From Sphingobacteriia bacterium (lineage in GTDB: Bacteria > Bacteroidota > Bacteroidia > Chitinophagales > Chitinophagaceae), in contig REAV01000181.1 of NCBI GenBank assembly GCA_004294465.1, forward strand, positions 1 through 14,408: 14,408 nucleotides of DNA, written 5' to 3'. The position numbers and the translations under genes are program-made. Below, piece after piece: positions 1,942 to 14,408 of this stretch (positions within the stretch are counted from its first letter, which is position 1; each line of letters starts with the position of its first letter). The notes beneath the pieces are model-generated. The model was given only the letters and a program-made list of their open reading frames with translations, searched no databases and was not told the origin of the DNA.

Positions 1942-2289
1942 TTATTGTTTCTTTTCAGTTTCATTGATATTCATTTTTACTCCTTCCTTAGCATCAATAT
2001 ACATGGCATATTTGCTTGCTACATCTGCAGTTAATTCAGTACCGTTGATGGTGATTTTTCCATTATTAATTTCTAATTTAACATCATCACCTTTAGCCAG
2101 ACCATCTTTTTTCAATGCTTCAATCAAACTTTTCATTTTATCTCCGTCGCCATCAATAGATAAAGTTGTAGTGCTATCAGTACTTGTTTGCTTAATGGTT
2201 ACTTCTACTTTCTTTTCGGTAAGATTTGCACCTTTGGTAGGATGCATTGTAGCCAAAGTAGGAGCGATAACCAATGAAACGATACTCAT
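1942..2289 (-). CDS. Detached C-terminus of membrane pyrophosphatase: last membrane helix plus soluble tail
   Basis: This 115-residue frame begins with ATG sharing its A with the pyrophosphatase stop (TAATG). Its first residues, MSIVSLVIAPTLA, match the final transmembrane helix (TM16) of membrane pyrophosphatases, which normally follows NILIKL. Reading one base twice near 2298 joins the frames as NIL-IKL-MSIVSL, giving one 804-residue protein. I therefore read it as the broken-off end of the upstream gene and not as a separate gene. After the helix come about 97 hydrophilic residues rich in Lys, Asp and Thr, with an internal stretch EINNGKITINGTEL. Ordinary pyrophosphatases end shortly after TM16, so this is an extra domain, and it should face the periplasm because both termini of the family lie on that side. 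Translation by reinitiation at TAATG is possible, but the product would lack the gate lysine. Confidence 0.75.
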   Translation of the reverse strand: MSIVSLVIAPTLATMHPTKGANLTEKKVEVTIKQTSTDSTTTLSIDGDGDKMKSLIEALKKDGLAKGDDVKLEINNGKITINGTELTADVASKYAMYIDAKEGVKMNINETEKKQ

Positions 2290-4355
2290 TAATTTAATAA
2301 GATATTCATTGATGGGCCTGATGTATCCTTAAATGGATCTCCCACTGTATCACCAGTTACAGAAGCTTTATGTGGCTCTGATTTCTTGAAATACATTTCA
2401 CCATTAATTTCAACACCTTTTTCAAAAGATTTTTTAGCATTATCCCAAGCACCACCGGCATTGTTTTGGAAAATTCCCATCAAAACACCGCTCACAGTTG
2501 CACCAGCTAAGAATCCACCTAATGCTTCAGGTCCTAACAAAAATCCAATTAGCAAAGGAGATACAATAGTGATTGCTCCAGGCAACATCATTTTCTTCAA
2601 AGAAGCTTCAGTTGAAATAGCTACACACTTATCATATTCTGGTTTACCAGTACCTTCCATAATTCCAGGAATAGTTCTGAACTGTCTGCGAACTTCTTCC
2701 ACCATTGCCATTGCCGCTTCACCCACTGCTCTGATAGCCAATGAAGAGAAGATAAATGGAATCATTCCACCGATAAACAATGAAGCCAATACATCTGCTT
2801 TATAAATATCAATATGTTGATTATCTGGCATTGCTACTCCAACAAATGCTGCAAATAAAGCCAACGCTGTTAGTGCAGCAGAAGCAATAGCAAATCCTTT
2901 ACCGCTAGCAGCTGTTGTATTACCTACTGCATCTAGGATATCTGTTTTTTCACGAACATCACTTGGTAATTCACTCATTTCAGCAATACCACCTGCATTA
3001 TCAGCGATAGGTCCAAAAGCATCAATAGCCAATTGCATAGCAGTTGTAGCCATCATACCAGCTGCAGCAATTGCCACACCATATAATCCAGCACAAGCAT
3101 AAGATCCATAGATACCGCCAGCCAATACTATAATAGGTAAGAAAGTACTTTCCATACCAACTGCTAAACCACCAATAATATTAGTAGCATGACCTGTTGC
3201 AGATTGACGGATAATGCTCATTACTGGGCGTTTGCCCATTGCAGTATAGTACTCTGTAATAATACTCATTAATGCACCTACCAATAAACCAACTGCAATA
3301 GCTCCCATCACTCCATTACGAGAAAACTCCAAGCCACGCAAATTCATGGTTTCTGGTAAAATATAATTTACAATAAAATAAGAAGCAATAGCAGTTAATA
3401 CCATTGATCCCCAGTTACCCATGTTCAAAGCACGTTGAACAGCATGTGTACTTGCACCTACTGAATCACTCACTTTTACAAACAATGTTCCAATAATCGA
3501 TAAAATGATACCTACACCAGCAATAATCATTGGTAATAAGATAGGAGCTAAGCCACCAAATGCATCTACTGATTTGGTTTCTTGTCCTAATACCATGGTT
3601 GCTAATACAGTTGCAACATAAGAACCAAATAAATCGGCTCCCATTCCAGCAACATCACCCACATTGTCACCTACATTATCGGCAATAGTTGCAGGATTAC
3701 GAGGATCATCTTCTGGAATTCCAGCTTCTACTTTACCTACTAGATCGGCACCAACATCGGCAGCCTTAGTATATATACCACCACCCACACGGGCAAATAA
3801 GGCAATACTTTCAGCACCTAAAGAAAAGCCAGTTAATACTTCTATTGTACGCAACATTCCTTCAGCATCTCCATCTGGAGAGAAGAAATGTTTCAAAATT
3901 AAAAACAGTCCGCCTAGTCCTAAAACAGCTAAGCCAGAAACGCCTAATCCCATAACAGCTCCACCAGTAAATGAAACATTTAAGGCTTTACTTAAACTGG
4001 TTCTTGCAGCTTCAGCTGTTCTTACATTGGCTTTAGTAGCTACTTTCATTCCAATATAACCAGCAGTTGCACTAAATACAGCGCCAATTACAAAAGCAAT
4101 AGCAATACTCCAGTGACTTTCTGGATTGCTGTTTGCCATAAAACCTAATAATAAAGCAACGACAGCTACAAAGTAGCCCAGGATTTTCCATTCTGCTTTT
4201 AAAAAGGCCATTGCACCTTCGGCAATGTAATTACTGATTTCTTTCATTCTGGCATTACCAGCGTCTTGTTTAGAAACCCAATTAAATTTGATTAACGTGT
4301 AAAGGAGTCCTATAACTCCCATCGCCGGAACGGCATAAAACAGTAGATTGTTCAT
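2289..4355 (-). CDS. hppA: K+-dependent type membrane pyrophosphatase (ion pump), frameshifted before TM16
   Basis: Membrane pyrophosphatase hydrolyses PPi and pumps H+ and/or Na+ out of the cytoplasm. The ATG at 4355 gives 688 residues; a TTG two codons earlier is less likely. Substrate-binding motifs are intact: GGGIYTKAADVGADLVGKVE, EDDPRNP and DNVGDNVGD near residues 191-235, and DNAGG and DAVGNTTAA further on. Ala482 and Gly485 (GNTTAASGKG) mark the K+-dependent class; K+-independent enzymes carry Lys and Thr there. The gate glutamate is not at either usual TM6 site: Asp241 is followed by Gly244 and Ala248. Instead Glu182 lies seven residues before Arg189 in TM5, the arrangement I recall for the Flavobacterium johnsoniae H+ pump. 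The frame stops after PSMNILLN. Homologues continue NILIKLM into TM16, so TM16 and its gate lysine are lost unless one base is missing from the sequence. The promoter is at 4393-4400. Confidence 0.93.
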   Translation of the reverse strand: MNNLLFYAVPAMGVIGLLYTLIKFNWVSKQDAGNARMKEISNYIAEGAMAFLKAEWKILGYFVAVVALLLGFMANSNPESHWSIAIAFVIGAVFSATAGYIGMKVATKANVRTAEAARTSLSKALNVSFTGGAVMGLGVSGLAVLGLGGLFLILKHFFSPDGDAEGMLRTIEVLTGFSLGAESIALFARVGGGIYTKAADVGADLVGKVEAGIPEDDPRNPATIADNVGDNVGDVAGMGADLFGSYVATVLATMVLGQETKSVDAFGGLAPILLPMIIAGVGIILSIIGTLFVKVSDSVGASTHAVQRALNMGNWGSMVLTAIASYFIVNYILPETMNLRGLEFSRNGVMGAIAVGLLVGALMSIITEYYTAMGKRPVMSIIRQSATGHATNIIGGLAVGMESTFLPIIVLAGGIYGSYACAGLYGVAIAAAGMMATTAMQLAIDAFGPIADNAGGIAEMSELPSDVREKTDILDAVGNTTAASGKGFAIASAALTALALFAAFVGVAMPDNQHIDIYKADVLASLFIGGMIPFIFSSLAIRAVGEAAMAMVEEVRRQFRTIPGIMEGTGKPEYDKCVAISTEASLKKMMLPGAITIVSPLLIGFLLGPEALGGFLAGATVSGVLMGIFQNNAGGAWDNAKKSFEKGVEINGEMYFKKSEPHKASVTGDTVGDPFKDTSGPSMNILLN

Positions 4356-4392
4356 AAGCAATTGTGTCTGATATTTATTTGGTTCAAGTTGG

Positions 4393-4447: not shown

Positions 4448-5671
4448 TTATTGATCCAGGGAAGCTGTATCGGCTCTTCCAGTAAAAACCGAACTCATTT
4501 TACCCGCAGACCATATATTTCGATTAAACTTGTTTCCTAAAATGATAACGGTAGCGGTGTCATTGATCAATCTTTTAAAAACCGCATTATTGCCATGCCA
4601 CCAGCCATTGTGGTAAACAATCGTTGGATCTGGTGGATTTACATACAAATGCCATCCTAATCCATAGTTTTTAGTCCCCCTGGTTTCATTGCTTAATGGC
4701 TCGTAGGACATTGCAAGGGTAGATTGATTAATAAAAGTACCCTGATAAAGAGCCCGATCCCATTGCAATAGGTCTCTTACCGTGCTATAAATATTTTTAT
4801 CTCCATAAACTCAATCCAATTTTTCTAAAGGAAAAGGGGATTTATTATAATTATAGGAAGGGATATAATTAGCCGTATCCTTTAAGCTAAATACATAACT
4901 GTCTTTCATACCCAAGGGGGTAAAAACACTGTCTTTCATGTATTGAGGGTAGGTTTGACCGGTAATTTTTTCTATGATCAACGCTAATAAAGCATAATTG
5001 GTATTACAATAACTATATCTCCGGTTAGGGGTAGCTTCTAAAGCAGGTTTTAATTCAACCAGATAACGCAGCACATCATAGTTATTGCTGATTCCTGTTT
5101 GAGAAATTGGATCTTTTACATACACGGTATATTTAACCCATTTGCCTCTTTTGTTCTTCTTTTTAGTTGTATAAGATCTAGTTCCTGCCATAAAATGATC
5201 ATATTTAGGCAGACCACTTCTATGAGACAATAAATTTTTGATGGTGATGGTCTCATAAGGAAAGCCATTCAGGTACTTAGCCACCGGTTCATCTATATCT
5301 AACCTGCCATCTTCCATTAAACGAAGGATGGTCATTGCAGTAAAGGTTTTGGATACAGAAGCTATATGAAAAGTAGAACTGGAAGTAATTGGCTCTTTGG
5401 TTTTAAAATTGATCATCCCTCGGTAATCCTCAAATACAATTTCGCCATTTTTAGCCATGATGATGGCTCCGTTAAACCCAGTGGCAACCAATTGTTTTTG
5501 GTAAAGTGGCTCAATCAAATTGGCATAATATTCTTTTGATTTGCTTGAAATAGGTGAAAAATCGTTAATTGGAGAAAAAGAAGCCTGCTCTTTTTGCATT
5601 TTAGACTTGTCTGAACCACTACAAGCCATTATTAAAAAAGAAAGTACTGGAATAATCATCTTTCTGGGCAT
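4448..5671 (-). pseudogene. Serine beta-lactamase-like lipoprotein (PF00144 family) interrupted by an in-frame TGA
   Basis: Read through the stop, this is a 407-residue serine hydrolase of the class C beta-lactamase / penicillin-binding-protein fold. The ATG at 5671 starts MPRKMIIPVLSFLIMAC, a lipoprotein signal with Cys at residue 16, so an envelope-anchored enzyme is expected. Catalytic motifs are SVSK (Ser105, Lys108), YCN (Tyr221-Asn223; YxN motif) and, beyond the stop, HNG (His354) within HNGWWHG, equivalent to the KTG/HxG box. Codon 287 is TGA, lying between LEKLD and VYGDKNIYSTVRDLL. The sequence before and after is in the same frame and clearly continuous, and Gly (GGA) is the residue expected there, so one base change explains the break. 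The first part (4811-5671) keeps two of three motifs; the rest (4448-4810) has no plausible start. It may be a young pseudogene or a sequence error. The substrate is unknown, and many relatives are peptidases or esterases, not antibiotic-resistance enzymes. Confidence 0.85.
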
Positions 5672-5695
5672 TAGGATTACATTGGTACGAAAACA

Positions 5696-5703
5696 CAAAT
5701 ATA
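5696..5703 (-). promoter_or_regulatory. Promoter -7 element for the beta-lactamase-like lipoprotein
   Basis: TATATTTG on the minus strand lies 25 bases upstream of the ATG at 5671. It overlaps the only upstream alternative start (TTG at 5698), which supports the ATG as the true start. No clear TTG is present 19-21 bases further upstream. Confidence 0.5.
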
Positions 5704-11775: not shown

Positions 11776-14274
11776 ATGCAATTGATCACTCGCTCCATCT
11801 TTTCATTCGGTTTAGCGTTTTTAACGCTTATTGCTTCAGCTCAGGTAGATCCTGGCTATTTAAAAGCCATGAAATGGCGAATGATTGGCCCACATAGAGG
11901 CGGCAGAACTGTTGGAGCAGTTGGAATTCCGAATCAACCCAATGTATTTTATATAGGTGTTAATAATGGTGGTGTATGGAAAACCACCGATTTTGGAAGA
12001 ACCTGGAAACCTATTTTTGATGATCAACCTACTGGGTCCATTGGAGATCTGGCTGTTGCCCCCTCTAACCCTAACACCATTTATGTTGCTTCTGGTGAAG
12101 GAATTCAACGCCCCGATTTATCAGTTGGCGATGGTATGTATAAGTCAATAGATGCAGGTAAAACCTGGGAAAATATTGGCTTAAAAGATGGCCAACAAAT
12201 TGGAGGTATTGCCATCGATCCGAAAAATGAAAACAAGGTATTTGTTGCGGTACTGGGTCATCCCTATGGTCCGAATAAGGAACGTGGCATTTTTAGAACT
12301 TCAAACGGGGGAAAAACCTGGGAAAGGGTTTTGTATAAAGATGAAAATACTGGCGCTATTCAAGTAACCATCGACCCTAATAATTCCAATATTATCTATG
12401 CTGATTTATGGGCAGGTCGTCAGGGCCCTTGGGAAAACGGTGCATGGAATGGTGCTGAAAGCGGTTTATACAAATCAACAGATGGTGGTGATACCTGGAA
12501 AAAATTGGTCACCGGCCTCCCTACTGTAGCTCAAGGATTAGGTAGAATTGGATTTTGCATTGCTCCAAGCAATTCCAATAGATTGTATGCAACTGTAGAT
12601 GCCGGAGACAAAGGAGGAATTTATAGAAGTGATGATGCGGGTGAAACCTGGATTAACATGAGTAGCGATAATAGATACTGGGGACGCGGTTCGGACTTTG
12701 CTGAAATAAAAGCAGACCCTTTGAATGCCGATATCGTTTATACTGCCAATGTGGTTGCTTGGAAATCTAAAGATGGAGCAAAAACTTGGAAAGCTTTTAG
12801 AGGAGCTCCTGGTGGAGATGATTATCATCGCATTTGGATCAACCCTACTAACAACAATATTATTTTAATGGCATCCGATCAAGGAGCCATTATTACCGTA
12901 AATGGTGGTGAAAGTTTTTCATCATGGTACAATCAACCAACTGCTCAATTTTATCATGTTAGTACTGATAATGCATTTCCTTATAATGTTTATGGAGGTC
13001 AGCAAGAAAGCGGATCTGTTGGTATATCCTCGAGAGGAAATGATGGACAAATTACTTTCAGAGAATGGCATCCAGTTGGTGTTGAAGAATACGGATATGT
13101 GGCTCCTGACCCACTCGATCCGAATATTATTTATGGAGGAAAAATTACCCGCTTTGATAAACGTACAGGCCAGGTTCAACATATCTCTCCGGAAGCAATC
13201 GCTTCTGGAAAATATCGATTTGTAAGAACAGCTCCGGTCTTGTTTTCACCAGTTGATCCAACCACTTTATTTTATGCAGGCAATGTATTGTTTAAAACCA
13301 ATAACGGAGGAAAATCATGGCAAGTAATAAGCCCGGATTTAACGAGAGAAAGTTATTCTAACATTCCAGAAAATGTTGGAATTTATACTACGGAGGAAAT
13401 GAAAAAAATGCCAAGACGTGGGGTTATTTATACCATTGCTCCTTCGCCAAAGAATGCAAATATTATTTGGTGTGGAACCGATGACGGTTATATTCAACTC
13501 ACAAAAGATGGAGGAAAAACATGGAAAAATGTAACTCCTCCTTCGATTACTGAATGGAGTAAAATTTCCATTATGGAAGCCAGTCATTTTGATGAGAACA
13601 CCGCTTATGCTGCAGTGAATCGAATCCGTTGCGACGATATGAAGCCGCATATTTATAAAACAACTGATGGTGGAACAACATGGAATGAAATAGTCAATGG
13701 ATTGCCATCAGATCCTATCAATACTGTAAAAGAAGATCCAAATACAAAAGGATTATTGATTGCCGGCTCTGAAAGAATGGTATATTTTTCTTTGAACGAT
13801 GGTCAGCAATGGCAACCATTACGATTAAACATGCCAGCTACTTCTATTCGTGATTTAGTAATTAAAGACGATGATATTGTTGTAGGAACGCATGGAAGAT
13901 CTTTTTGGATTTTAGACAATATCACTCCGCTTCGACAATTAGTAAAGAATAAAAATGTTGTGCTGTTTAAACCACCAACAACTACAAGGGTTAGATGGAA
14001 CATGAATACTGATACTCCAATACCACAAGAAGAACCAAGTGGTCAAAACCCTCCAGATGGAGCCATTATCGATTTTTATTTGAACAAAAAATCAAGTGGG
14101 CCAATTACATTAGAGATAAAAGATAATACAGGAAAAATAGTAAGGAAGTTTAGCAGCAATGATCTACCCTATCCTATTCCGCCAGTAAATATTCCTTTGT
14201 ATTGGGTGCCTACAAAAATAGTGCTATCAAAAATTGCCAATGATCCAATATTGGATTCTATTATTTGGGTATGA
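11776..14274 (+). CDS. Secreted Vps10/sortilin-like beta-propeller protein, C-terminus replaced
   Basis: This 832-residue protein has a signal peptide (cleavage after about Ala22) followed by WRMIGPHRGGRT, the usual opening of bacterial sortilin/Vps10-like proteins, often labelled glycosyl hydrolases without proven activity. Many Asp-box (BNR) turns recur through residues 70-680, for example FGRTW, DAGKTW, NGGKTW, DGGDTW, DAGETW, DGAKTW, NGGKSW, DGGKTW and DGGTTW, which indicates large stacked propellers. After residue 700 comes the start of the linker and C-terminal region (NIPLYW to residue 810). Homologues continue with a segment containing a GxHRFxWD-like motif and roughly 200 more residues. 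Here the family resemblance ends at Trp810 and only 22 unrelated residues follow. I infer 3' truncation at a junction near 14,190-14,210. The role may be in extracellular protein or polymer handling; none can be assigned. Confidence 0.88.
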   Translation: MQLITRSIFSFGLAFLTLIASAQVDPGYLKAMKWRMIGPHRGGRTVGAVGIPNQPNVFYIGVNNGGVWKTTDFGRTWKPIFDDQPTGSIGDLAVAPSNPNTIYVASGEGIQRPDLSVGDGMYKSIDAGKTWENIGLKDGQQIGGIAIDPKNENKVFVAVLGHPYGPNKERGIFRTSNGGKTWERVLYKDENTGAIQVTIDPNNSNIIYADLWAGRQGPWENGAWNGAESGLYKSTDGGDTWKKLVTGLPTVAQGLGRIGFCIAPSNSNRLYATVDAGDKGGIYRSDDAGETWINMSSDNRYWGRGSDFAEIKADPLNADIVYTANVVAWKSKDGAKTWKAFRGAPGGDDYHRIWINPTNNNIILMASDQGAIITVNGGESFSSWYNQPTAQFYHVSTDNAFPYNVYGGQQESGSVGISSRGNDGQITFREWHPVGVEEYGYVAPDPLDPNIIYGGKITRFDKRTGQVQHISPEAIASGKYRFVRTAPVLFSPVDPTTLFYAGNVLFKTNNGGKSWQVISPDLTRESYSNIPENVGIYTTEEMKKMPRRGVIYTIAPSPKNANIIWCGTDDGYIQLTKDGGKTWKNVTPPSITEWSKISIMEASHFDENTAYAAVNRIRCDDMKPHIYKTTDGGTTWNEIVNGLPSDPINTVKEDPNTKGLLIAGSERMVYFSLNDGQQWQPLRLNMPATSIRDLVIKDDDIVVGTHGRSFWILDNITPLRQLVKNKNVVLFKPPTTTRVRWNMNTDTPIPQEEPSGQNPPDGAIIDFYLNKKSSGPITLEIKDNTGKIVRKFSSNDLPYPIPPVNIPLYWVPTKIVLSKIANDPILDSIIWV

Positions 14275-14408
14275 GTGCTGATACTTTTCCATATTTCATC
14301 CTTAAAATCGTATAAATATACCCCCTTGTCTTTTGTAGCAATCCCTAAATGTTTTTTTGAAGTGGCTATTCCTCCTAAGCCAATTCTTGTTTTTTGAGGC
14401 AATCCTTC
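14169..14408 (-). CDS. C-terminal fragment of a beta-propeller repeat protein, 5' end outside window
   Basis: The frame is open to the window edge, so only the last 79 residues are visible. Two repeat-like units appear: GGIATS...LGIATKDKGVYLYD...IWKSI, then IGSLAIFDSTIFVGTQYKGIF. This pattern (strand, short turn, GTxxKGIF-like strand, W) is typical of Bacteroidota propeller proteins with YCF48/BNR-like or two-component-regulator-like blades. The stop comes only a few residues after the last unit, so the end may be cut off. Its last 106 bases overlap the 3' end of the convergent sortilin-like frame. Because 14211-14408 reads much better as protein on this strand, I take that stretch to belong to this gene and the overlap to be a junction. 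Function is unknown. Confidence 0.55.
   Translation of the reverse strand, partial: EGLPQKTRIGLGGIATSKKHLGIATKDKGVYLYDFKDEIWKSISTHTQIIESNIGSLAIFDSTIFVGTQYKGIFTGGIG

Follow-up and report, generated by a model that had tools for sequence, protein, structure and literature searches.

A membrane pyrophosphatase gene interrupted just before its gate lysine in one Chitinophagaceae draft genome: a probable consensus error

The stretch of DNA analyzed here (14,408 nucleotides, hereafter the window) is contig C33 of draft genome G000, an assembly of 1.78 Mb in 233 contigs that is 70.6% complete. Its minus strand carries two open reading frames of different phase that overlap at their ends. The main frame (2289–4361, 690 amino acids) begins with a TTG codon as listed, with an ATG two codons further in. 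It ends ...GPSMNILLN-stop within helix 16 of a membrane pyrophosphatase, with the stop codon at 2289–2291. The tail frame (1942–2289, 115 amino acids) lies one base back, in the −1 phase. Its ATG (2287–2289) overlaps the main-frame stop in a TAATG (2287–2291) and opens MSIVSLVIAPTLA, the end of helix 16, which is followed by a C-terminal extension of about 100 amino acids. The junction (2287–2303) thus differs by a one-base shift from that of unbroken relatives. Read in the −1 phase, it contains IKL ahead of the tail ATG, with the lysine codon at 2293–2295. An earlier sequence-only reading of the window had described a split into NILLN-stop and a TAATG restart, with this lysine codon missing from both products; inspection of the sequence directly confirmed the coordinates and the reading, and the codon exists in the −1 phase only. 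Were the −1 shift to occur as late as possible, at the final codon, Asn would occupy the gate position; an earlier shift is needed for Lys.

At the opposite end of the contig, a Sortilin/BNR-type gene (11776–14274, plus strand) ends near a minus-strand open frame of 79 amino acids (14169–14408), which by eye resembles part of another propeller protein. Neither a Pfam match nor an informative similarity was found for this terminal region, and the contig end may be chimeric.

The main frame matches PF03030 with an E-value of 1.1e-263 over profile positions 1–635 of 645, and NCBIfam model NF001955 (sodium-translocating pyrophosphatase) with 1202 bits at a cut-off of 1059. Family membership predicts pyrophosphate hydrolysis coupled to Na+ or H+ transport. 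The frame shares with membrane pyrophosphatases, including those of solved structure from T. maritima (4av3) and V. radiata (4a01), the core and the helices up to helix 16. Its residue 689 was aligned to Vigna residue 741, so the Asn that follows occupies Vigna position 742. Table 3 of PMC6882861 places at this position of helix 16 (16.50) an ionic-gate residue, K742 in Vigna and K707 in T. maritima, with 94.5% identity, and PMC5150537 describes K16.50 as paired in open states with a gate glutamate that is semi-conserved, and as repositioned in bound states. The lost lysine is accordingly the one that had been named from the sequence, Vigna radiata Lys742 of the helix 16 gate. In contrast to the other pyrophosphatases, the window has Asn in place of K16.50, then a stop, with the continuation in the −1 phase; both assembled frames lack the gate lysine.

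For comparison of the junction, 109 related loci were used: 29 lie in same-genus or same-order genomes (part of the matches obtained in 54 of 60 genomes searched), and 80 are the best of 593 from named genomes. Judged by the pyrophosphatase protein, the nearest named genomes among these best 80 of 593 are Chitinophagaceae and other Bacteroidetes, including Sediminibacterium, and many are metagenome genomes. One locus (L026) ends short of the junction, leaving 108 usable loci; three locus pairs are identical between the two sets, so that 105 are distinct. Every one of the 108 reads SMNILIKLMSIV unbroken. Since the relatives carry both parts in one frame, a chance overlap of two unrelated frames was rejected, and the alignments identify the two frames of the window as one gene. 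The alignment to close homologues that had been proposed as a check thus returned no case of the same split.

Homologous proteins gave the same picture. Among 145 of them (25 from one search and the best 120 of 8000 from another), NILIKLMS is present in 142. The remaining three (P0004, P0018 and P0023) start at the Met of MSIVSL and are hence uninformative; they come from contigs of 1.4–1.9 kb. Four others (P0003, P0005, P0019 and P0021) start one Met earlier, with MNILIKL. All seven are probably genes cut by contig edges. The six nearest proteins among the matches listed (P0026–P0031, of which P0029 is labelled at source as a Sphingobacteriia metagenome-assembled genome) are whole, 793–804 residues long, and contain NILIKLMS. 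They differ from the main frame at 5–9 positions over 676–687 residues (98.7–99.3% identity) and have a tail of the same 115 residues as the window but, unlike the window, joined to the body without a break.

The tail of the window stays open as far as the usual stop and shows 10–16 differences from five intact tails, which differ among themselves at 4–15 positions; the corresponding numbers for the main frame are 5–9 for the window against intact relatives and 1–8 among the relatives. Private residues number five in the window's tail, compared to 0–7 in the five intact relatives, and four in its main frame (one being the shifted codon itself), compared to 0–3. By these counts the window sits slightly apart in both main frame and tail, with no extra decay in the tail. 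The break is therefore either very recent or an artefact not present in the organism, and an old pseudogene was rejected on the same ground.

The length of the extension that follows helix 16 is highly variable across relatives. Counted after the Lys-Leu, it is 39–58 residues in 29 of the 108 loci, 85–135 in 63 and 220–247 in 15; in one it is cut by the locus end. Most same-genus loci contain a weakly conserved strand/helix segment, while extensions in some other families (L027, L028 and L031) are rich in Cys, His and Met. No Pfam or NCBIfam family scored over its cut-off on the window's tail. AlphaFold prediction of the 115-residue tail from 20 sequences (19 of 25 found plus that of the window) gave a mean pLDDT of 55.5, too low for a fold search. 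Among the literature matches listed, nothing on C-terminal extensions of bacterial pyrophosphatases was judged relevant.

The quality of the G000 consensus was assessed by a census of broken genes, using tblastn in both directions between G000 and a relative, G021. Of 60 further G000 contig stretches, 10 consisted entirely of N, and the G000 part, window included, comprised 61 contigs and 549,752 letters; the G021 part comprised 1,437,775 bases of about 3.0 Mb. In a first pass, 4 of 7 forward and all 4 reverse rows fell inside codons 1–21 and were set aside as start-site or antisense artefacts. Six of the 11 forward census rows came from a single frame, L220, which was judged antisense (several stops, 57% identity) and left out. 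Five of the 152 G021 genes compared are broken in G000, and none of 155 is broken in G021 in the reverse comparison. Besides the pyrophosphatase at the window junction on the minus strand, the broken genes are a serine hydrolase of family PF00144 (window 4448–5698, minus strand) with an in-frame stop at 4808–4810, parB (locus L127 on G000:C16) with an in-frame stop at about 1164, a gene for a Big_5-domain protein with a frame shift close to a contig end, and an RmlD-type gene broken at an ambiguous run. The serine hydrolase gene and parB are both open in G021. Fisher's test gave p = 0.029 for 5/152 against 0/155 and p = 0.058 for 4/151 against 0/155, with the gene at the ambiguous run removed. 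The excess weakly suggests a poor G000 consensus.

The pump gene also appears in pieces of different frame, away from the junction, in two of 36 same-genus genomes, which counts against a broken pump gene being peculiar to G000. In G028 (C168:5268–7120) the pieces cover residues 2–428 and 502–689; in G036, a single-contig genome, three pieces lie out of order (C1:899709–903153). These breaks would fit faulty assembly as well as a pump that the cell can spare, and we left our assessment of the window unchanged by them.

How, then, is the frameshift to be explained? Directly observed are the shift of frame, the unbroken junction of the relatives, a tail that is open and undecayed, and further broken genes in the assembly. 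An error of assembly or consensus is favoured by the unbroken relatives, the open tail, the fragmentation of the draft into 233 contigs and the breakage of other genes. We consider that the frameshift is probably a consensus error in the contig. Such an explanation is weakened by several points. One-base sequencing errors usually fall in homopolymers, and there is no homopolymer of at least five bases within 2201–2400. Two of the other broken genes carry point stops, which are seen in real pseudogenes too, and the excess of broken genes is statistically weak. The pump pieces in G028 and G036 may indicate that this genus can do without the pump. It is quite possible, though less likely, that a real, recent and private mutation has put the pump of this strain out of action. 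The protein would then break off within helix 16, short of the gate lysine, the tail would be unmade or useless, and the cell would survive without the pump. The lack of a homopolymer near the site suits such a mutation, the undecayed tail suits a very young event, and the fragmented pumps of G028 and G036 suggest that the loss may be tolerated. On the other hand, the mutation is absent from the 108 junction-holding loci and from the six nearest proteins; the other broken genes, parB among them, implicate the consensus; and no second PF03030 match that could offset the loss was found in the genome, at its 70.6% completeness.

Readings in which the split is functional fare much worse. Programmed −1 frameshifting, or another form of recoding, could join the frames into a full pump, and in genes that use programmed −1 frameshifting, such as dnaX and those of the IS3 type, the second frame likewise lies in the −1 phase. 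The window shares this correct relation of the frames but differs from such genes in having no slippery heptamer, no conservation of the arrangement and apparently no strong downstream structure. No heptamer of the X_XXY_YYZ type occurs in the 13 codons usable for a −1 shift, i.e. the span from the last stop in the −1 phase to the zero-frame stop. The RNA from the junction onwards folds slightly better than shuffled sequences, but with a z-score of −1.64 and 9 of 200 shuffles as good in the one window folded the structure is not exceptional. With none of the 108 loci sharing the arrangement and no slippery heptamer, conserved recoding was rejected, and recoding of any kind is highly improbable. 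Still less probable is a genuine two-part pump, in which a stop-restart at TAATG would yield a body of 690 residues plus a tail of 115 made separately, with no gate lysine in either. The TAATG overlap is a plausible restart and the three short public proteins P0004, P0018 and P0023 begin exactly at MSIVSL, but the break falls in the middle of helix 16, the short contigs of these proteins and the MNILIKL starts of the four others fit cuts at contig edges, and TAATG is also found in 38 of the 108 unbroken loci. In the relatives the gate lysine is followed by Leu-Met, and where this pair is encoded TTA-ATG it includes TAATG in the shifted phase, so that an overlapping stop and start come free with a shift at this place. 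Even taken together, it is very unlikely that the strain makes a body ending before the gate lysine that is completed by the restarted 115-residue tail or by recoding, with Asn or Lys at the gate. The sequence-only reading had likewise ranked sequencing error and inactivating mutation above recoding and a two-part pump, and the unsplit state of all 108 loci and the lack of a slippery heptamer support that order. Our verdict is that a consensus error is the likeliest explanation, a private mutation comes second, and recoding or a two-part pump is very unlikely.

The locus is best explained as an ordinary membrane pyrophosphatase gene with a C-terminal extension (the best named match being sodium-translocating) in a Chitinophagaceae draft genome, whose helix 16 is hit by a shift of one base that occurs, among the sequences examined, in the G000 assembly alone. 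If this shift is indeed a consensus error, the gene is probably functional, and the living cell would make the usual pump in one piece, about 804 residues long and with the gate lysine present. What the assembly contains is a normal pyrophosphatase gene interrupted in one draft, which gives no reason to class it as a split or recoded pump of a new kind. The frameshift in itself is of little importance. Were the split real, the need for K16.50 in pumping would be put in question, but nothing found here favours a split. The case serves rather as a caution: a frameshift that falls at a mechanistically famous residue and creates a neat TAATG restart can mimic design.
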